Source: a virus. From it: 22,943 nt of DNA. How positions within the stretch are numbered: position 1 is the stretch's first letter; every line of letters starts with the position of its first letter. Positions 1,670-22,943 of this stretch are shown here, in pieces. The notes beneath the pieces were generated by a model. That model made no database searches. It saw nothing but the letters and a program-made list of their open reading frames with translations, and had not been told where the DNA came from. A program made the position numbers and the translations under genes. The stretch covers positions 1 through 22,943 of IMG/VR virus record IMGVR_UViG_3300032285_005256; one strand, written 5' to 3'.

Positions 1670-2285
1670 AAATTTACTATCTGAATTTTTAGACGAGTTG
1701 AGTTTTGAGCAAAAAGTGGAGGCTTCAAATCGAATTAAATCTCTTCTTATCAAAAAAAGCCCGTTTAACAAGGAACCAGTTGAATGTGTGCAATGGATTA
1801 AATCAGAGTTAGTCGTAGCTAACGATTATAACCCTAATGCGGTTGCTGCAACTGAAATGAAATTGCTAGAAACTTCTATTTTGAATGACGGATATACTCA
1901 ACCCATTGTGACCTGGAAGCATGATGGAAAGTATGAAGTGGTTGACGGATTTCATCGAAATATAATTGGCAAAGAATCAGAGTCAGTTCGGAATAGGATT
2001 TTTGGATATTTACCTGTCGTAGTGATCAATGAACAGTCCGCTGATCGTTGTAATCGTATTGCAGCAACAGTACGCCACAATCGAGCACGCGGCAAACATA
2101 AGGTTTCCACAATGTCCGATATCATCGTTGAGCTGCGAAGAAGGCGGTGGAGCTATGAGAAAATTGCAAATGAACTGGGAATGAAAGAAGATGAGATTAT
2201 CAAATTGTCCCAAATTTCCGGAATTGCTGATTTATTCAAAGATCGAAAATTTTCTCAATCATGGGAACCTTCGTCATCAGAATGA
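1647..2285 (+). CDS. ibrB: IbrB-like ParB/sulfiredoxin-fold protein
   Basis: The product has 212 residues. The ATG at 1647 is preceded by AAGGAG at 1637-1642. A ParB-like domain spans roughly residues 45-130, with an NPN...L..SI...G..QPI segment and the signature DGFHR at 100-104, followed by RHNRARG at 143-149 and a helix-turn-helix-like stretch (about 168-190). Proteins of this type occur beside PAPS-reductase-like IbrA, and that partner is the next gene. In E. coli, IbrA and IbrB are known as regulators of immunoglobulin-binding Eib proteins and lie on prophage-related DNA; their biochemistry is not established to my knowledge. The start lies within the endonuclease gene and the TGA stop shares bases with the ibrA ATG (ATGA), so the three genes look translationally coupled. 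Confidence 0.75.
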   Translation: MSKIEDIENLLSEFLDELSFEQKVEASNRIKSLLIKKSPFNKEPVECVQWIKSELVVANDYNPNAVAATEMKLLETSILNDGYTQPIVTWKHDGKYEVVDGFHRNIIGKESESVRNRIFGYLPVVVINEQSADRCNRIAATVRHNRARGKHKVSTMSDIIVELRRRRWSYEKIANELGMKEDEIIKLSQISGIADLFKDRKFSQSWEPSSSE

Positions 2286-3490
2286 AACGTAAATATCAAT
2301 CGCAAGATGTATTGTATTCAGCTAAAAATAGAATTCGATTTGTTTTTGATCACTTCGAGAAAGTAATGGTAGCCTTTTCTGGCGGTAAAGACTCAACGGT
2401 ATTGACTCATTTAGTAGCTGAAGAGGCTCGCATGAGGGGACGCAAATTTGGGTTAATGTTCATTGATTGGGAGTGTCAGTACGACCTCACAATCAAATTC
2501 GTCGGTCAAATTTTTAAAGAGTATGAAGATTGCATCATTCCCCTCTGGCTTTGCATTCCTTTAATAACACCCAATGAAACATCGTGCGTAGAACCAGTCT
2601 TTAAGGCATGGGATGAGTCAAAAAAAGAGCTATGGGTAAGAAATCTGCCTGAAATTGCCCTAACCCAAAAAGAAGTAGCTTGTTTCAAAGAAGGAATGAG
2701 CTTTGAACAGTTTGTTCAAGAAGTCTCTGAATGGTACGGTGGTGGTAAACCGTGTGCGAATTTTATTGGGATCAGAACTCAGGAAAGCCTTAATCGTTAT
2801 CGAGCAGTTGCGAATCGAAAAAAGGAACTTTTCAAGAATCAATATTGGTCCACAAAGGATTCGGGTGGGTCTTGGAAGTTTTATCCTCTTTATGATTGGG
2901 AGAAAGAGGACATTTGGACGTATTTGGGAAAATTTAAAAAAAGTTACAATCCTATTTATGACCGCATGTACCTAGCAGGGGTTCCTATTTCTTTAATGCG
3001 AGTGGATGAGCCATTTTCGGAACAATTTAGGAGACAACTTTGGCTTTTCTCTGTGATTGAACCTGAAACTTGGTCAAAGATCACTGCGAGAATTGCAGGA
3101 GTTCACACGACAGAATTATATGGTCGTGAACCTGCTGTATTTGGCTCTGGTAGACTTGCTCTTCCAGAAGGTTATTCTTGGAAAAAATTCGCTCATTTAA
3201 TTCTTAATTCAATGCCACACACTACATCTGAACATTATAAGACCAAAATTGCTGTATATCTTAAATGGTGGAAAGAGCATGGGTATCCTGATGATATTCC
3301 AGAGACTGCATCCAAGACTCAAGAACGTTTAGACGAAATTCCAAGCTGGAGAAAAATCTGTAAAACCTTGCTTCGTAATGATTATTGGTGTGTTTGGTTA
3401 GGTTTCCAACAAACTAAGTCAAATAGTTATGAAACGTATATGTCGCTAATGAAAAAAAAGAGGCAGGAGTGGGGTATTTTTCAAGATTAG
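2282..3490 (+). CDS. ibrA: IbrA-like PAPS reductase / PP-loop family protein (DUF3440)
   Basis: The product is 402 residues from the ATG at 2282, which overlaps the ibrB stop as ATGA. This start is preferred over an ATG at 2261 because the family begins close to the conserved V..A..RI..VF segment seen here. The PP-loop motif SGGKDST is at residues 33-39, followed by the FIDWE motif. Later segments (GIRTQES, YPLYDWEKEDIWTYL, YNPIYDRMYLAGVP, R..EPF, and RIAGVHT) are hallmarks of IbrA/DUF3440 proteins. The family resembles PAPS reductases and DndC, enzymes that bind ATP-like substrates or activate sulfur chemistry, but the reaction of IbrA is not known to me. It has the usual partner ibrB. The TAG stop is followed by a 128-base gap before the next structural gene. 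Confidence 0.85.
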   Translation: MKRKYQSQDVLYSAKNRIRFVFDHFEKVMVAFSGGKDSTVLTHLVAEEARMRGRKFGLMFIDWECQYDLTIKFVGQIFKEYEDCIIPLWLCIPLITPNETSCVEPVFKAWDESKKELWVRNLPEIALTQKEVACFKEGMSFEQFVQEVSEWYGGGKPCANFIGIRTQESLNRYRAVANRKKELFKNQYWSTKDSGGSWKFYPLYDWEKEDIWTYLGKFKKSYNPIYDRMYLAGVPISLMRVDEPFSEQFRRQLWLFSVIEPETWSKITARIAGVHTTELYGREPAVFGSGRLALPEGYSWKKFAHLILNSMPHTTSEHYKTKIAVYLKWWKEHGYPDDIPETASKTQERLDEIPSWRKICKTLLRNDYWCVWLGFQQTKSNSYETYMSLMKKKRQEWGIFQD

Positions 3491-5058: not shown

Positions 5059-6102
5059 ATGGATCATGTGATGGATTATTTAGATTCTGAGGCAGCTCAG
5101 TTTGATTTTAAAAGCTTAAGTGTCCCGGATGCGATTAAAAAAGCAGAGATGTGGTTAAAGAGCCTCACGCGTGGAAAGGCTGCACGAGAGGTTCCTGGTG
5201 AGATTCCTGTAAAGACCTATTCGGATGGTTTTAAGTGGTTGAAGCTGACTTCTCGGGAATCCTTGGATCGTGAGGGAAAACTCATGGGTCATTGCGTGGG
5301 TTCTTACTATGAGAAAGTAGCTGAAGAAGGTACAGAGATTTATTCACTCAGAGATCCTAAAAACGAACCTCATTGCACGATTGAAGTGACGGATCGAGAA
5401 ATTCAACAAATTAAGGGCAAGCAAAATAAAGAGGTAGTGTCTAAATACCATTCTTACGTTCAGGATTTTGTGAATACACAAGGCTTTGAACTCGGTGATG
5501 GAGGAGATCACGATTTAACTAAGGCTGGAATGATTCGGATTGGCAAACAGCTCATGACTTTAGATCAGTTTCAAGCATCTAAGAATCTAAAAGTAGATGG
5601 GAGTTTGGATCTCCGTCGCACGAAGGTCACGTCCTTACCTAAGGACTTAAAGGTGGGTGGATATTTGGATCTCAATGGCACGAAGGTCACGTCCTTACCT
5701 AAGGACTTAAAGGTGGGTGGGGGTTTGTATCTCAGTGACACGCCGATCAAGTCCTTACCTGATGGCTTAGAAGTGGGTGGAAATTTGGATCTCCGTGGCA
5801 CGAAGGTCACGTCCTTACCTGATGGCTTGAAGGTGGGTGGGTATTTGTATCTCAGTAACACGCCGATCACGTCCTTACCTGATGGCTTGAAGGTGGGTGG
5901 GAGTTTGGATCTCCATGGCACGAAGATCACGTCCTTACCTGATAACTTGAAGGTGGGTGGGAATTTGGATCTCCATGACACGAAGATCACGTCCTTACCT
6001 GATAACTTGAAGGTGGGTGGGTATTTGTATCTCCGTCGCACGAAGATCAAAAAGGATGATTTCAAAAAGCCTCCTGGAGTGAAGGGTGAGGTGTTCAATT
6101 GA
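5059..6102 (+). CDS. PcfJ-like core plus leucine-rich repeats, C-terminal part of amber-split gene
   Basis: The product is 347 residues. The frame opens with ATG immediately after the in-frame TAG, and no convincing ribosome binding site precedes it. Residues 1-45 continue the helical segment begun upstream (MDHVMDYLDS...DAIKKAEMW). The PcfJ-like core (about 55-145) has LTSRESLDREGKLMGHCVGSYY, then YSLRD, PHCTIEV and QIKGKQN motifs. In PcfJ-type proteins the H-C and downstream residues are conserved, but the activity is unknown to me. Residues about 175-335 are eight 20-residue leucine-rich repeats of the form LKVGGxLDLxxTKxTSLPDx, encoded by a 60-bp DNA repeat. This suggests a protein-binding solenoid. 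It overlaps the next gene (TTGA). Confidence 0.7.
   Translation: MDHVMDYLDSEAAQFDFKSLSVPDAIKKAEMWLKSLTRGKAAREVPGEIPVKTYSDGFKWLKLTSRESLDREGKLMGHCVGSYYEKVAEEGTEIYSLRDPKNEPHCTIEVTDREIQQIKGKQNKEVVSKYHSYVQDFVNTQGFELGDGGDHDLTKAGMIRIGKQLMTLDQFQASKNLKVDGSLDLRRTKVTSLPKDLKVGGYLDLNGTKVTSLPKDLKVGGGLYLSDTPIKSLPDGLEVGGNLDLRGTKVTSLPDGLKVGGYLYLSNTPITSLPDGLKVGGSLDLHGTKITSLPDNLKVGGNLDLHDTKITSLPDNLKVGGYLYLRRTKIKKDDFKKPPGVKGEVFN
5581..6060 (+). repeat. Eight-copy 60-bp in-frame tandem repeat encoding leucine-rich repeats
   Basis: The sequence repeats with an exact 60-base period for eight units from 5581 to 6060. The strongest conservation is in the ACG...TCCTTACCT and TTGAAGGTGGGTGG blocks at the unit ends. 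Each unit encodes one 20-residue LPx-type leucine-rich repeat. Differences between units cluster at a few codons (the residue after GG, the two after LDL, and the D/K after LP). The first and last units are the most divergent, as in arrays that grow and shrink by unequal recombination or slippage. Confidence 0.95.
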
Positions 6103-10883: not shown

Positions 10884-11738
10884 GTGAATGCAATTGTCAT
10901 TGGGGGCTCGGGGAACTTAGGTCAGGCTTTAATCACAACGATGGTTCGTGCGGGAGCAAATGTGCTCTGCCCCTCCCATCAGGAGATGGATCTCACGAAC
11001 GAGATTGCCGTCAGAAAATTCATCACCAGCGCAAATCCTACTTATGTGATTAACGCAGCAGCGATGACGGATGTGGATCGCTGCGAGAGGGAGCCTGATC
11101 TGGCCAAGCTCATTAATGGCCGGGCTGTGGGTTTTGCAGCTTCTGCTGCGCGTAAGGTGAAGGCCAAATTCATTCAAATCAGCACCGATTATGTGTTTGA
11201 TGGCAGATCGCTTGATCCTTACTCGGAGTACAGTGTGCCTCACCCACTTCAAGAGTATGGAGCCTCCAAGCTCTTAGGCGAGCAGTACGCGCTTGAGAAG
11301 GGTGGCAGTGTGTTTCGGGTGCAGTGGTTGTTTGGTCAGATTAAAGGAAATTTCATTGATTGGGTGGCCCAGAGTCTGATGGAGGGGAAAAAAATTCCCA
11401 TCTTTGATCAGGTGGGCTGTCCTCACTCGGCTTTTTTTGTGGCCAATCTTTTAGTCCTATCGCTTCAGGCGTGCCGAAGTGGGGTGTATCACATCGCTCA
11501 TGATCAGGCGACGAGTCGGCAACAAGTGGCTAAGTACATTTTAGGGTATTTTAGGAAAGATCCCAAAGAGTGGTTAGTTGAGCCCATTCCACAAGCCAGT
11601 TGGGTGGCTGAACGGCCTCGTTCGGTTGCTCTCGGTACGCAGGAGTTGAAGAGCTTGCTTGGGGTAAAAACGTTTGGAACCTGGGAGGCTGATGTTCTGG
11701 CTTATCTCTCGTCGAGGTATAATCGGTGGAATCGTTAA
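10884..11738 (+). CDS. rmlD: dTDP-4-dehydrorhamnose reductase (RmlD) homologue
   Basis: The product has 284 residues. The GTG start at 10884 has AGGGTGAT at 10873-10880 upstream. This is an extended short-chain dehydrogenase: GGSGNLG (residues 7-13) is the nucleotide-binding loop. NAAAMTDVDRCE, the IST101DYVFDG motif, and Y125xxxK129 (YGASKLLGE) complete the catalytic Thr-Tyr-Lys set. In the rhamnose pathway RmlD reduces dTDP-4-keto-L-rhamnose to dTDP-L-rhamnose in the cytoplasm. Length is normal for the family. It overlaps rmlC by 13 bases and is followed by rmlA, giving a D-C-A order without rmlB. The related RmlD-like reductases of other sugars cannot be excluded. Confidence 0.8.
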   Translation: MNAIVIGGSGNLGQALITTMVRAGANVLCPSHQEMDLTNEIAVRKFITSANPTYVINAAAMTDVDRCEREPDLAKLINGRAVGFAASAARKVKAKFIQISTDYVFDGRSLDPYSEYSVPHPLQEYGASKLLGEQYALEKGGSVFRVQWLFGQIKGNFIDWVAQSLMEGKKIPIFDQVGCPHSAFFVANLLVLSLQACRSGVYHIAHDQATSRQQVAKYILGYFRKDPKEWLVEPIPQASWVAERPRSVALGTQELKSLLGVKTFGTWEADVLAYLSSRYNRWNR

Positions 11739-12247
11739 CGGGATGTCAGATCTTTAAAAACATTTGCTTTTCGGATGAGCGGGGTCATTTCATTGAGGCT
11801 TATAAGAGATCGAGTTTTTCGATCCCCCCCATCCGGCAAACGAATATTTCAAAATCCACGAGGCATACGGTGCGTGGGCTTCATTTTCAACGCAATCGTC
11901 CGCAGGGAAAACTCGTGCGCGTGGCCGATGGAATGGTCTTGGATGTGGTTGTGGATTTAAGGGTGGGCTCACCGACTTATGGCAAGGTCGAGCAGTTCTT
12001 ACTCACGCCTGAGGGGATTTCCGTTTATGTGCCGCCTGGGTTTGCTCATGGGTTTTGGTGTTTAAGTGAAACGGCTATTTTTCATTATGGGTGTACGGAG
12101 GAGTGGGATTCTGAGAGTGATTCAGGGATTCACCCCATGGACCCGGAGCTGAGTCTTCCGTGGAGGAATCGCTCGAATTTAATTTTCTCAGAAAAAGATC
12201 AAAAGCTTCCTTTCTTAAAAGATTTCAAATCTCATTTCAGATTCTAG
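11726..12247 (+). CDS. rmlC: RmlC-like dTDP-sugar epimerase (cupin), altered active site
   Basis: The product is 173 residues; the start is GTG at 11726 with GAGGT upstream. The cupin core is clear: RHTVRGLHFQ (H53 is the catalytic base position), GKLVRV, DVVVDLRVGSPTYG and YVPPGFAHGF. RmlC converts dTDP-4-keto-6-deoxyglucose to the L-rhamno isomer by epimerising C3 and C5. In classical RmlC a Y-K-x-T-[DN]-Y-Y segment carries the catalytic Tyr; here the aligned segment (residues 121-127) is YGCTEEW, with both tyrosines replaced by Glu and Trp. The enzyme may therefore epimerise only one centre, act on a different sugar, or be inactive. The TAG stop is embedded in the ribosome binding site of rmlA. 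Confidence 0.75.
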   Translation: MESLTGCQIFKNICFSDERGHFIEAYKRSSFSIPPIRQTNISKSTRHTVRGLHFQRNRPQGKLVRVADGMVLDVVVDLRVGSPTYGKVEQFLLTPEGISVYVPPGFAHGFWCLSETAIFHYGCTEEWDSESDSGIHPMDPELSLPWRNRSNLIFSEKDQKLPFLKDFKSHFRF

Positions 12248-12256
12248 GAGAATTTT

Positions 12257-12976
12257 ATGCGTTTTATTGTCGCTGCCGGTGGGAGTGGGACGAGGATGCT
12301 GCCTTCGACTCGGTTTATTAATAAGCATCTTATTGCGCTTTTAAATGGGGAGTTGATGATTGATAAGCCCCTTCAGTTTTTAAGACTCCATGCGGTGGAT
12401 GAGATCACGCTGGTGACGGGTTCCAATCATGCGGCTCAGATGGTGGAGTATGTGGGGGATGGCTCTCAGTATGGGTTTAAGAAAGTGGGCTATGCCTTTC
12501 AGCCTAAGCCTGCTGGAATTGCCGATGTTCTTAACCGGATCTCTCAGGAGGGAAGTGAGCAGGGGGTGCTGATGATTTTGGGGGATAATTATTTCTCATC
12601 GCTCCAACCTACGTTATTGAATTTAGGAGACGCTGATCATGCGGCTGCTTGGGAGTTTGATTTAGGCAATCCTGAGATGGCCAAGCGGTTTGGACAAGTG
12701 GAGAGGGATTTGAATAACAATCCGTTATTCATTACAGAAAAACCCAAAAACCCTATTCACGGAAAAGTTTTAACTGGGTTATACTTCTTTCCGTCGGATG
12801 TTTTTAAAAAAGTTCAAGAACTCGCACCTTCGCAGAGAAACGAACTTGAGATCACGCATCTTTTAGGGATGTATTTGACTGAGAATCGTTTAGCAGTCCA
12901 TGAGGTTGAGGGAAAGTGGGCTGACTTGGGTGAATGGAATGAAATCAGAAAGTTTGTCACGAATGATCTGTCCTAA
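12257..12976 (+). CDS. rmlA: Glucose-1-phosphate nucleotidylyltransferase (RmlA-like)
   Basis: The product is 239 residues from the ATG at 12257, with AGGAG at 12246-12250. The signature AAGGSGTRMLPST (residues 6-18) with K23 is the nucleotide-binding loop. LGDN (108-111) carries the metal-binding Asp; EKPKNP (161-166), TGLYFF (173-178), ELEIT (196-200) and WADLG (221-225) follow in RmlA order. RmlA makes dTDP-glucose from dTTP and glucose-1-phosphate. The protein is about 50 residues shorter than tetrameric RmlA and lacks the C-terminal regulatory helices, as in the short nucleotidylyltransferases. The usual KPMI segment reads ELMI. The exact nucleotide and sugar are not certain. Confidence 0.8.
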   Translation: MRFIVAAGGSGTRMLPSTRFINKHLIALLNGELMIDKPLQFLRLHAVDEITLVTGSNHAAQMVEYVGDGSQYGFKKVGYAFQPKPAGIADVLNRISQEGSEQGVLMILGDNYFSSLQPTLLNLGDADHAAAWEFDLGNPEMAKRFGQVERDLNNNPLFITEKPKNPIHGKVLTGLYFFPSDVFKKVQELAPSQRNELEITHLLGMYLTENRLAVHEVEGKWADLGEWNEIRKFVTNDLS

Positions 12977-17272: not shown

Positions 17273-17800
17273 ATGGCAGAAACAGCGAGATCTCAGAGTA
17301 CTGATCCATTTTCAATGCACCGTTTTCATGTCACGGACACGGGTGGGTTTTTAAACCTCTCCACTCCTGCTGCTGGATTCAACACCTTGGTGGCTCCTGA
17401 GATGAGCGTGGGCTCGGTGGAGTACCAAGAAGGCACGATGCTTTATCGCCGAAAGTATCCGGGTGAAGTGACATTCGCTCCGCTTACTCTGACGAAGGGT
17501 GTGGTGAAGAATGACACGAGCTTTTATTCCTGGATGCGTGCGTGTGCTGAGAATCAGATCTACCGAACGAACATCATCATCAAGCATTTTCACCGAGATG
17601 ATGTGACGGGTTTAGTCGATTATCAGAAAGCCACTCCTTATCGGGAGATTCATTGCTTCAACGCGTTTGTCACGCGGGTGAAGATGGGCTCTGATTTTGA
17701 CTCGATGTCGGCTGAGATCTCCATTGAGGATTTGGATATTGAAATTGAGTATTTCCGCATGTTTGAAAACGGTGTGGAGATTAAGGCCACCGGAGCGTAA
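17273..17800 (+). CDS. Tail tube protein, first of three paralogues (gp19-like)
   Basis: The product is 175 residues from the ATG at 17273, with AAGGGAG upstream. It has the T4 gp19-type tube pattern: FHVTDTGGF near the start, AGF...PE, VEYQEG...YRRKYPGEVTF, TLTKGVVK, FYSWM, YRTNIIIKHFHRDD, and DFDSMSAEISI near the C-terminus. These proteins stack as hexameric rings to form the inner tube under the sheath. Following the sheath gene directly is the usual order. Being the most canonical and shortest of the three, it is the likely main tube subunit. Confidence 0.85.
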   Translation: MAETARSQSTDPFSMHRFHVTDTGGFLNLSTPAAGFNTLVAPEMSVGSVEYQEGTMLYRRKYPGEVTFAPLTLTKGVVKNDTSFYSWMRACAENQIYRTNIIIKHFHRDDVTGLVDYQKATPYREIHCFNAFVTRVKMGSDFDSMSAEISIEDLDIEIEYFRMFENGVEIKATGA

Positions 17801-17803
17801 AAA

Positions 17804-18352
17804 ATGGCTGTCACCCCAGGCTCTAGGCAGGATCAATCCACGGATTATTATCACTCATTTCGCTTCGGAGTGAGTGATGAGGTGGGGTATATTCAGAAAT
17901 CGCTCGTAGCAGGGTTTTCTCAATGCTCTCTGCCTGAGCGTAACGTGGATCACATTGAGTACTCTGAGGGGACTTGGACTTACTCAAAGATGTATCCGGG
18001 CCGATCCACGTTCTCGACGGTGACCTTATCGCGTGGGTTGGTGAAGGGGTATACTCAGTTTGCTGATTGGATTGTCAAGGTGTCTGAGGGAGCTGATTAC
18101 CGAACGAACGTGACGATTCATCAGTTTCACCGTTCGGATTTAAATGGGCGCTCCAGCGGACCTGAGTTCTCAACGAGTGGTCTGCCTGCATCACGAAAAA
18201 TCGTTTGTTATAACTGCGTGCCGATTCGTTTCCGTCCGGGTCATGATTTTGACGCAACCGCAAGTGACATTTCGGTTCAAGAAATTGAGTTTCAGCCTGA
18301 GTATTTTAAGGTGTTTCAGGTTGATCCTGGAAATGATGCTCCAACGTCCTAA
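17804..18352 (+). CDS. Tail tube-like protein, second paralogue
   Basis: The product is 182 residues from the ATG at 17804, with GGAG seven bases upstream. It aligns clearly with the preceding tube protein: IEYSEG...YSKMYPGRSTF, TLSRGLVK, YRTNVTIHQFHRSD and DFDATASDISV. A longer insertion lies between the FHR and CYN segments (GRSSGPEFSTSGLP). It may form tube rings at one end, such as the tube-baseplate or tube-terminator junction, as in contractile injection systems with several tube paralogues. This specific role is inferred. Confidence 0.8.
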   Translation: MAVTPGSRQDQSTDYYHSFRFGVSDEVGYIQKSLVAGFSQCSLPERNVDHIEYSEGTWTYSKMYPGRSTFSTVTLSRGLVKGYTQFADWIVKVSEGADYRTNVTIHQFHRSDLNGRSSGPEFSTSGLPASRKIVCYNCVPIRFRPGHDFDATASDISVQEIEFQPEYFKVFQVDPGNDAPTS

Positions 18353-18367: not shown

Positions 18368-18961
18368 GTGGCCAGTCCAGGGACTTTAATCAACCGGCAT
18401 TTACGACTCTCTGATTATTTATCGACTCTTCACTTTCACTTAATTGATGTGAGCTTTCAGATTCCAGCCGTGTTTAATCTCGCTTTTGGATTTAGGTACT
18501 GCTCAGGCCCTGAGATCACGGTGGATACGAAGGAGATCAAAGAGGGCACTTACGAGTACCGAAAGTTCGTGGTTCATGGAGCCTCAGCCGGAGCCATCAC
18601 GCTTCATCAGGGAGCTCAGTTTTTTAATAGTGATTTCTATTCCTGGGTCCGATCTGCGGTGAAGGGGACAAAATCCTATAGGCGAAATTTCATGCTCATT
18701 CAATTCTCAGACGTATCCCCATTTGGAGTAGGCTCAAGCGGACAGGGGTTTTTGGGTGGAGTAGGTGGGGATCTTCTCAATGCTGCAATTCCTCTGAACG
18801 ACCTAGTTTCTCGGGTTCCGGCTAGGTCTTGGATGCTGAGCGGTTGTATTCCAACTCATTATAAAGCTGCCAGTGATTTTGATCCCATGAGCAGTGATAT
18901 CTCAATCATGGAGCTTACCCTTCAGCCCCAGTCGATTGAAGAATTCAGCATGGGAGTTTAA
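18368..18961 (+). CDS. Tail tube-like protein, third and most divergent paralogue
   Basis: The product is 197 residues; the start is GTG at 18368 with AGGAGAG (18356-18362). Shared tube features are FHLIDVS at the start, KEGTYEYRKF, ITLHQGAQF, YSWV, YRRNFMLIQFSD and DFDPMSSDISI. A glycine-rich loop (about residues 120-135) replaces the usual connection, and the N-terminus carries an extra 15 residues. A specialised baseplate hub or initiator ring is a reasonable guess, since tube-like hub proteins are found in contractile machines. It is followed 3 bases later by the SWIM-type gene. Confidence 0.7.
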   Translation: MASPGTLINRHLRLSDYLSTLHFHLIDVSFQIPAVFNLAFGFRYCSGPEITVDTKEIKEGTYEYRKFVVHGASAGAITLHQGAQFFNSDFYSWVRSAVKGTKSYRRNFMLIQFSDVSPFGVGSSGQGFLGGVGGDLLNAAIPLNDLVSRVPARSWMLSGCIPTHYKAASDFDPMSSDISIMELTLQPQSIEEFSMGV

Positions 18962-20993: not shown

Positions 20994-21713
20994 ATGGAAG
21001 GCGCTAAGGCAGCAGTTGGAAGTGTGGAGTTACCTACCGGAGTGAAGATGGGGGATGTCGTGCATCGCTCGGTTAAGTTTCGGGAGCTGGCTGGTCCTGA
21101 GGAGGATGTTTTGGCCTCGGGGATGAGTGCGGGTCAAAAAATGGCTCAAGTCATGGCGAATTGTACGCTTGAGCTAGGGACGATCACCTCGCCTGCTGAA
21201 ATCAGAAAAGCGATGGACAAGCTCGTGGTGACGGATCGGTGGTTTTACTTGGTTCATCTCAGAATTTTGTCCTTAGGCGCGTCTTATCATTTCGAAACGA
21301 CTTGTCCTCATTGTTCAGCTCTCGATAAAATCACCTATGATTTAAGAACCGTTCAGGTTCAAAACCCTCCGAACGCAGGGGAGTTATTCGGTGAGGTCAC
21401 GCTCCCTCGGACGGGCTCTCGCGTGCGATGGAAAGTGGCTGACGGAGAGACTGAGGCCAAGATGGAGAAGATGGCTTCTGGGGGTCGTGAGGCTTCGGTT
21501 GCTTTGTTTGCCCGAGTTACGGAGGTGAATGATCGGCCTGCTTCACTTTCTGATATCATTCAGCTTCCTCTGGCGGATCGCTCGGCTTTAAGAAAAGCGA
21601 TGGATGAGAAGGAGGGGGAGTTTGATGACACGTTTGAGAGAAGTTGTGGAAAGTGTGGACAAACTTATCAAGGTCAGCTTCAGTTGGATGGTAAAACTTT
21701 TTTCTCCCTATAG
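20994..21713 (+). CDS. Tail assembly chaperone, zinc-containing (gp26/PF12322-like), zero frame
   Basis: The product is 239 residues from the ATG at 20994, with GAGGAGG (20982-20988) as ribosome binding site. Two CxxC pairs (CPHC at 104-107 and CGKC at 218-221) form a probable zinc site. VTDRWFYLVHLRILSLG (about 80-95) and the L..ADRSALRKAMD segment resemble the T4 gp26-type family. The gene lies just upstream of the tape measure gene, where contractile-tailed phages keep a chaperone made in two forms by frameshifting. A slippery heptamer in the last codons and a hairpin downstream support that here. The zero-frame TAG is at 21711-21713. In T4 terms it might instead be a hub assembly protein; the two roles may overlap. 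Confidence 0.65.
   Translation: MEGAKAAVGSVELPTGVKMGDVVHRSVKFRELAGPEEDVLASGMSAGQKMAQVMANCTLELGTITSPAEIRKAMDKLVVTDRWFYLVHLRILSLGASYHFETTCPHCSALDKITYDLRTVQVQNPPNAGELFGEVTLPRTGSRVRWKVADGETEAKMEKMASGGREASVALFARVTEVNDRPASLSDIIQLPLADRSALRKAMDEKEGEFDDTFERSCGKCGQTYQGQLQLDGKTFFSL
21698..21704 (+). promoter_or_regulatory. Slippery heptamer T TTT TTC for -1 ribosomal frameshift
   Basis: In the zero frame the bases 21698-21704 read T TTT TTC, the X XXY YYZ type on which both tRNAs can re-pair one base back. Slipping moves the ribosome into the frame that is open to 21907. The heptamer is 6 bases before the zero-frame stop and 7 bases before a perfect hairpin stem, the usual spacing for a stimulator. Confidence 0.8.
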
Positions 21714-21907
21714 GCTATCTCAAGAATTTTGAAGAGGAGATAGCCTTCCTGATAGAGAGCCTAAGCATGAACTATCAGGACGTATACTCAATGCCTTACG
21801 GTAGGAGGCAAAGGCTGATAGAGTGGAAGGTGGATCGACTTCAGAAGGAGCAAAAAGCTCGGCAAGAGTCTGAAAGTCGAATGAGGTCGCAATCAAGGAG
21901 GCGCTAA
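21704..21907 (+). CDS. Frameshifted C-terminal domain of the tail assembly chaperone (gp51/T-like)
   Basis: After a -1 slip, 67 codons follow in this frame up to TAA at 21905-21907, giving a fusion of 304 residues with the zero-frame protein. The extension reads GYLKNFEEEIAFLIESLSMN, then YQDVYSMPYGRRQRL, and then a charged coiled-coil tail rich in K, E and R. A Y..V..MP..RR...I pattern is what I expect of chaperone T-domains and gp51-like proteins that recruit the tape measure protein. An ATG at 21767 with a GAGAG upstream could also start a free 46-residue product. The stop is directly followed by the tape measure GTG. Confidence 0.7.
   Translation, partial: LPIGYLKNFEEEIAFLIESLSMNYQDVYSMPYGRRQRLIEWKVDRLQKEQKARQESESRMRSQSRRR
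21712..21746 (+). promoter_or_regulatory. Perfect 10-bp hairpin, probable frameshift stimulator
   Basis: AGGCTATCTC (21712-21721) pairs perfectly with GAGATAGCCT (21737-21746) around a 15-nt loop. The stem starts 7 bases after the slippery heptamer and overlaps the zero-frame stop codon. This is the standard place for a structure that pauses the ribosome on the slip site. Confidence 0.8.
21747..21780 (+). promoter_or_regulatory. Second adjacent perfect 9-bp hairpin, start codon in loop
   Basis: TCCTGATAG (21747-21755) pairs perfectly with CTATCAGGA (21772-21780) around a 16-nt loop that contains the ATG at 21767. It abuts the first hairpin with no gap, so the two could stack coaxially. It may strengthen the frameshift or hide the internal start. 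Confidence 0.65.
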
Positions 21908-22943
21908 GTGCCAAACAAGAGATTTCTAGGACTTGGATTTACCTTCTCGGCCACTGACCGAGGGCTGGAGAAAAAGCTCTTAGGCGTTAAAAAAGCGTTA
22001 TCTGGGATCGCCTCCTCTTTAGACGATGTAAATGCGGGAGCAGCCTCCGCGAGTGCTTCTTTTTCTCGGATGAAAAGACCTAAACTCTCTGCTTCAAAAT
22101 CATCCGCTAGTAGCCAGGGAAAAAGCCGTCCTCTTTCTCTTGAGAAAACACAACTTAAAATCCTCTCTCATACAGGCAGAATGATTACGCTCATGCGTCG
22201 GAATCCTCTCACCTCGGTACTTCCAAAAGAGCAAAAAGTGGCTGAGGCTCCTCGTGAGAAGACTCAAGCCTCCACTCACCCTGCCTCCGAGCGTTTAGGC
22301 TCAGTATTTCGAGAGCGAGATCTGAGAAACTCTTTTAGATGGGGTGATTCCAACTTAAAAGACGTGATGTCGAAATTGTCTGATGAGTCTAAAAAAACGG
22401 TTACGGACATTTCAAAATCAGTGGAAAAAGTGTTGGGCAAGGACTTATTAGGCGCATGGAAAAAACAATCTGAAGGCATCCGAATCGAGATGGATTCTTT
22501 GGGAAATATGTCAGATCGCTCGGCTCAAAAGCTCTTGGATCTTGCCAATAACTTAGCAACAGTAGCCTCTGAATCAGATGAGTTTGCCAAAAATCTCTCT
22601 CTGCTTAAGACCGTTTTTGAGATGACGAAGCATTGGTTTGCTGATGTCAAAGGAGCTGCCACTCAATTCTTAAACACGATTGGAGTGGATTTCTCAAAGA
22701 TGATCCCAGAACAACTCAAGGCCCTTTATGGGGTTTTAGATGCGGCTCTTTTGAAGCCTCTTAAGAGTGGTCTAGGAGCATTAGGCAAGAACCTTTTTGG
22801 TAGAGTGGTGAAATCTCGAACCGAGAAGTACCAGGAGCAATTGCTAAAATCCATTGGGACGGATCAATCGAAAAATAGCTCAGTTCAGGCTCTCTTAGCC
22901 AAGATGATCAAAGAGTTAGAGGAGAAGAAAGAGAAACCCAGTA
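21908..22943 (+). CDS. Probable tape measure protein, N-terminal part (partial)
   Basis: The GTG at 21908, with AAGGAGG (21895-21901) upstream, opens a frame of 345 codons to the window edge. The start (LGLGFTFSATDRGLEKKLLGVKKALSGI) resembles the N-terminus of tape measure proteins. A serine/alanine-rich stretch and a long, mostly helical region with regular hydrophobic spacing (TKHWFADVKGAATQFLNTIGV..., LKSGLGALGKNLFGRV) come next. Tape measure proteins set tail length and lie inside the tube. The position directly after the frameshifted chaperone pair is diagnostic in tailed phages. The protein continues beyond the window, so its total length, and with it tail length, is unknown. Confidence 0.75.
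   Translation, partial: MPNKRFLGLGFTFSATDRGLEKKLLGVKKALSGIASSLDDVNAGAASASASFSRMKRPKLSASKSSASSQGKSRPLSLEKTQLKILSHTGRMITLMRRNPLTSVLPKEQKVAEAPREKTQASTHPASERLGSVFRERDLRNSFRWGDSNLKDVMSKLSDESKKTVTDISKSVEKVLGKDLLGAWKKQSEGIRIEMDSLGNMSDRSAQKLLDLANNLATVASESDEFAKNLSLLKTVFEMTKHWFADVKGAATQFLNTIGVDFSKMIPEQLKALYGVLDAALLKPLKSGLGALGKNLFGRVVKSRTEKYQEQLLKSIGTDQSKNSSVQALLAKMIKELEEKKEKPS

Follow-up and report, generated by a model that had tools for sequence, protein, structure and literature searches.

The DNA analysed here, called the window throughout, is an entire IMG/VR record of 22,943 bases and represents a fragment of a contractile-tailed phage. The source phage is uncultured and T4-related, and belongs to a remote, little-sampled lineage. 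Toward the end of the window, a plus-strand open reading frame (20994 to 21713), preceded by an AGGAGG ribosome-binding site, encodes a protein of 239 residues assigned as the short form (TAC-N) of a T4 gp26-type tail-assembly chaperone. The protein matches the Pfam family PF12322, T4_baseplate, with an E value of 2e-6 (28.1 bits against a cut-off of 24.5), and the baseplate hub family phrog_150 with an E value of 1.6e-9. Its close relatives are found on two IMG/VR contigs, L005 (75% identity) and L006/L009 (56% identity), in which the arrangement of the locus is identical, and the L005 and L006 proteins score 34.5 and 43.5 bits (the latter with an E value of 3.9e-11) against PF12322. Identity to cyanophage gp26 is about 14-19%, and the AlphaFold model of the protein (pLDDT 53, pTM 0.41) is too poor for a fold test or a structure search. 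The family matches, together with the homologues, back the tail-chaperone identity proposed in the initial annotation, and they support the reading of this protein as a T4 gp26-type hub-assembly or tail chaperone with a presumed chaperone role. That annotation had also regarded a zinc-binding protein in this position as unusual. The protein does contain two Cys-x-x-Cys pairs (C104/C107 and C218/C221), but comparable clusters are carried by T4 gp26 and gp51 and are usual in the family.

The surrounding genes are consistent with a tail-chaperone reading. Profile matches to Pfam and PHROG families place a tail sheath gene, three tail-tube-like genes, and a baseplate-wedge-type gene upstream of the chaperone gene, giving the order sheath, tubes, wedge, chaperone, and long gene. 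The last of these begins immediately downstream (21908 to 22943, plus strand) and is truncated where the record ends. It probably encodes the tape-measure protein, judging by its position, length, and hydrophobic segments; profile searches with this gene returned no tape-measure family match. The counterpart in L005 is 746 amino acids long with two hydrophobic segments, and the counterpart long gene is annotated as a tape measure in Bacillus phage SP-15, Listeria phage LIS04, and Flavobacterium phage immuto.

Several other features of the window may be recorded. The three tail-tube-like genes are consecutive (17273-17800, 17804-18352, and 18368-18961); the first matches T4 gp19 and all three match phrog_4542. 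The Vandenendeviridae have likewise been reported to carry a triplicated tube locus (PMC12846349). In the phage structural region, the open reading frame at 5059-6102 contains tandem leucine-rich-like repeats of approximately TKVTSLPDGLKVGGxLDLxG. A PAPS-reductase/DUF3440-type gene (2261-3490) adjoins an open reading frame that appears ParB-like by eye (1647-2285), a pair reminiscent of DNA-modification genes. Within the virion gene block, positions 10884-12976 hold three sugar-nucleotide genes, which by eye are dTDP-4-dehydrorhamnose reductase-like, epimerase-like, and nucleotidyltransferase-like.

The slip site and its twin hairpins

The chaperone gene ends in a candidate -1 shift site. The slippery heptamer T_TTT_TTC lies at 21698 to 21704 (plus strand) in the frame of the gene, and it is followed by a spacer of 7 nucleotides (21705 to 21711) and by the zero-frame stop codon TAG (21711 to 21713), which overlaps the foot of the first hairpin. 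Spacer and stop are both invariant in the window, L005, and L006. Hairpin 1 (21712 to 21746) has a 10-bp stem formed by 21712-21721 and 21737-21746, and hairpin 2 (21747 to 21780), which directly abuts it, has a 9-bp stem formed by 21747-21755 and 21772-21780. From the slip site onward, the -1 frame runs open to a TAA at 21905-21907, so that the -1 extension (21704 to 21907, plus strand) amounts to 67 amino acids and a stop; in the long form it would supply the C-terminal domain (TAC-C), which resembles gp51 in its position. The predicted products are thus 239 residues in the zero frame and 237+67, or 304, residues after a shift to -1. Recomputation reproduced exactly the heptamer, the 7-nucleotide spacer, the 10-bp and 9-bp stems, and the -1 frame to 21907 that had been described initially.

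This combination stands out from the rest of the window. Across 32 genes there are 42 zero-frame slippery heptamers, and a perfect stem of at least 6 bp starting 4-10 nucleotides downstream follows just one of them (1/42), the heptamer at 21698-21704, which also has the longest -1 opening of the 42. Perfect stems of at least 10 bp at that distance occur at 2 of 6563 codon positions in the window.

RNA folding of 21698-21800 yields exactly the two stems at -27.9 kcal/mol (z -2.9), a stability reached by 2 of 200 shuffles. A second comparison is provided by a codon null, in which the amino acids of the -1 frame are held fixed while synonymous codons are redrawn in 2000 random versions. Against this null, 0-1 of the 2000 versions were as stable as the two-hairpin region of the window (z about -4.5), and the null was exceeded in all three sequences, with z values of about -4.5, -4.0 to -4.5, and -2.7 to -3.6. 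Pairing is retained in 98.2% of pair cells across the three sequences, counting both hairpins. In hairpin 1, 8 of 10 pairs are invariant, one changes from U-A to U-G, and one is mismatched in L006. All 27 cells of hairpin 2 are paired (27/27), with one compensatory change from A-U to G-C and two G-U changes. Taken alone, covariation is supportive and not decisive, and it is compatible with chance in the shuffle control, since its score over three sequences with a single compensatory pair was reached by 178 of 500 shuffles. Hairpin 1 is likely to act as a frameshift stimulator, to judge by the distance, stability, and conservation of its stem.

A probable frameshifted chaperone gene and its alternatives

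Comparison within the lineage rests on the window, L005, and L006; searches found no close relatives beyond the two contigs in IMG/VR and none in GTDB genomes, and a first alignment of five sequences had diverged too far to support a pattern search. In the three-sequence alignment, nothing in the locus is better conserved than the slip site: a stretch of 18 nucleotides that starts at the heptamer, takes in the stop, and reaches into hairpin 1 is the same in the window, L005, and L006. Four sequence marks of -1 frameshifting are present: a zero-frame heptamer, a downstream stem, an overlapping and conserved -1 open reading frame, and conservation in homologues. Because the homologues keep heptamer, spacer, stop, and stems, a ribosomal frameshift, the chaperone identity, and the short and long products are all supported. 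The comparison of homologues suggested in the initial annotation therefore favors its reading: heptamer, spacer, stop, and both stems recur in L005 and L006 with the one compensatory stem change, and neither relative encodes the 46-residue protein separately with a conserved ribosome-binding site. Its proposal of a short and a long product gains further support from more distant homologues, including marine T4-like phages, in which the heptamer is found in 79 of 79 gp26 genes. The locus is thus very probably a tail-assembly chaperone gene of the T4 gp26 type in which programmed -1 ribosomal frameshifting yields short and long forms.

Under this mechanism, most ribosomes would terminate at the TAG (21711-21713) and release the 239-residue short chaperone. 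A minority would pause at one or both hairpins, either of which may contribute to slippage, and on T_TTT_TTC the tRNA-Phe molecules in the P and A sites would re-pair in the -1 frame. Translation would then continue for 67 more codons, to 21907, to yield a long form of 304 residues. If the system works like lambda G/GT, the tape-measure protein would be bound by many copies of the short chaperone and few of the long one, and these would bring in the subunits of the tail tube.

An improbable alternative is that the -1 open reading frame is a separate small gene translated from an internal ATG. Such an arrangement has precedent in annotation, as cognate gp51-type open reading frames are annotated separately in KVP40, Bellamy, Melnitz, and SP-15. 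The pattern of conservation in the extension argues against it. The -1 peptide shows 59-67% identity with those of L006 and L005, its conservation sets in at the very first codon beyond the slip, and the conserved segments LPIG, EEE, and AFL begin upstream of nearly every candidate start. Within the -1 frame, second positions of codons also change least in the 21 codons that precede the ATG in the loop of hairpin 2 (21767 to 21769, plus strand). This ATG, which lies in the -1 frame and opens the 46-residue open reading frame, had been singled out initially as a notable feature, but it is not a conserved start: the aligned codon is not ATG in either L005 or L006, and the best upstream Shine-Dalgarno match is 3/6. 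Another candidate is the ATG at -1 residue 30, which is common to the window, L005, and L006 and has AGGA-like letters 8 nucleotides upstream (matching AGGAGG at 5/6, 4/6, and 4/6 positions in the three sequences). However, a perfect AGGAGG site is found before each flanking gene and before none of the internal starts, and the methionine at residue 30 belongs to a protein motif, so that this ATG needs no start function. A separate gene would also leave the invariant choice of codons at the slip site unexplained. A small internal product may nonetheless be made alongside the fusion.

The two remaining alternatives are both very improbable. RNA polymerase could join the frames by slipping on the run of six T, which is indeed present. 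Six T make a short run for transcriptional slippage, however, and both the conservation of T TTT TTC in codon phase and the presence of two stems at ribosomal spacing, more stable than the codon null, fit translation better. That the stable tandem stems form a terminator or other RNA element beside an incidental heptamer is hard to reconcile with the lack of a T run after either stem, their position inside a conserved coding frame, and the slip site being the most conserved part.

Predicted shift direction within the family

By sequence, the closest named relatives are the SP15-like phages, represented by Bacillus phage SP-15, Listeria phage LIS04, and Streptococcus phage GXN1, together with about 30 IMG/VR loci. 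These share with the window a homologous gp26-type gene whose overlapping extension lies ahead of the tape measure. The extension of the window is in the -1 frame, whereas theirs is in the +1 frame, usually with TTT_CGN at the same Phe-Phe position. A +1 extension is found in SP-15, LIS04, GXN1, two uncultured jumbo phages, and the Flavobacterium phage immuto, as well as in the majority of 35 other IMG/VR loci. Those combining a +1 extension with a conserved TTT_CGN at Phe-Phe-Arg are L100-L131, L135, L002, L003, L004, L008, L012, and L013. A +1-type chaperone gene is also present on an uncultured Erysipelotrichaceae genome contig (L135), which is probably a prophage or phage contig.

At the Phe position of the +1 group, the site reads TTT_CGT in 16 loci, with CGC in 2 and CGA in 1. 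GXN1 is among the relatives with TTT_CGT, and SP-15 has TTT_CAC in this region. Other arginine codons in these genes are mostly AGA (249/352), with CGN accounting for 62/352. Because CGN is used at the site whereas arginine elsewhere is mostly AGA, frameshifting at UUU_C in the +1 direction is likely, in which tRNA-Phe would move from UUU onto UUC. Where the preceding codon is TTC, a -2 slip is a poorer fit.

The position of the window in this family is best considered on a tree. The window clade sits on a long branch on the +1 side of a split (100/100) from the T4/cyanophage side. On the best tree, the three direction labels have to change four times, and the well-supported branches demand that the -1 label change at least twice. 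The direction of the shift has therefore probably changed within the family, although the exact history is unsure. One tentative reading, which we regard as possible but rather less than probable, is that a single family uses the same Phe codons for opposite shifts, with -1 at T_TTT_TTC in cyanophages, KVP40, and the window lineage, +1 at TTT_CGN in SP15-like and some jumbo phages, and gene duplication in T4. The window lineage may then have switched direction and gained the twin hairpins as a -1 stimulator. The family data suggest that the direction of a shift can change while its product is kept.

Profile searches with the -1 extension gave no match to phrog_634, the gp51 C-terminal family, and its profile comparison with cyanophage gp51 was not significant. 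A weak match was obtained to the SP15-type extension profile (E value 4e-4, probability 34%). Homology of the -1 extension to gp51 is suggested by position and a loose motif.

Comparison with T4-like phages and lambda

The likeness to T4-like gp26/gp51 lies in the PF12322 short form, in the position of T_TTT_TTC (shared with cyanophages, KVP40, and Atu_ph07), and in the predicted addition of a gp51-type C-terminal part. All marine T4-like gp26 loci for which enough sequence is available (79/79) have the same T TTT TTC one codon before the stop, and in each of these 79 the -1 frame that encodes gp51 runs open through the slip site. The choice of codons is specific to this point, as the terminal Phe-Phe of marine T4-like gp26 is encoded by NNT TTT TTC in 80/80, whereas internal Phe-Phe is encoded by TTT TTC in 0/79. 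The equivalent point reads T TTT TTC in KVP40 and Atu_ph07 and T TTT TTT in Melnitz. Unlike the cyanophages, whose slip site is invariant, the remote window lineage has two strong hairpins; no hairpin geometry common to the cyanophages was found when one was sought, and structure is only mildly favored in them (median z -1.7).

The T4-like tail-chaperone system (TAC-N/TAC-NC), including its poly-T slip sites, was reportedly published by Vladimirov, Gautam and Davidson in 2022 (Virology 566:9-15). Two papers cite that work: one mentions poly-T slippery sequences in T4-like short-form genes (PMC12846349, citing Vladimirov 2022), and the other mentions that some T4-like phages have one short and one long gene in place of a frameshift (PMC10885494, citing Vladimirov 2022). 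A size difference in cyanophage gp51 had been remarked in 2010 (PMC3037559), and a 2016 review singles out T4 as the exception where the G-T frameshift is otherwise widely conserved (PMC5009743). The idea of presenting T4-like phages as an unexplained exception on this basis was dropped, as Vladimirov et al. 2022 reportedly addressed it already.

T4 itself keeps gp26 and gp51, both listed as hub assembly chaperones in a T4 review (PMC3004832), as products of separate, paralogous genes on opposite strands. Both proteins fall in PF12322, gp51 having an extra C-terminal part (phrog_634). Where T4 uses two genes, the window locus looks like one frameshifted gene. The wider family data indicate that the gp26 and gp51 genes which many phage annotations keep apart are probably better annotated as a single frameshifted gene. 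The -1 frameshifts of lambda G/GT and P2 E/E' are comparable by analogy, as a short form with a frameshifted C-terminal domain that at the window locus is predicted from sequence; lambda uses a slip site other than T_TTT_TTC. Frameshifted tail chaperones of T4-like phages are therefore already known, and the likely +1 shift at TTT_CGN in the SP15-like relatives may be less known. The window extends the -1 type to a remote uncultured lineage, with a clean and testable signal in which two hairpins follow the slip site.
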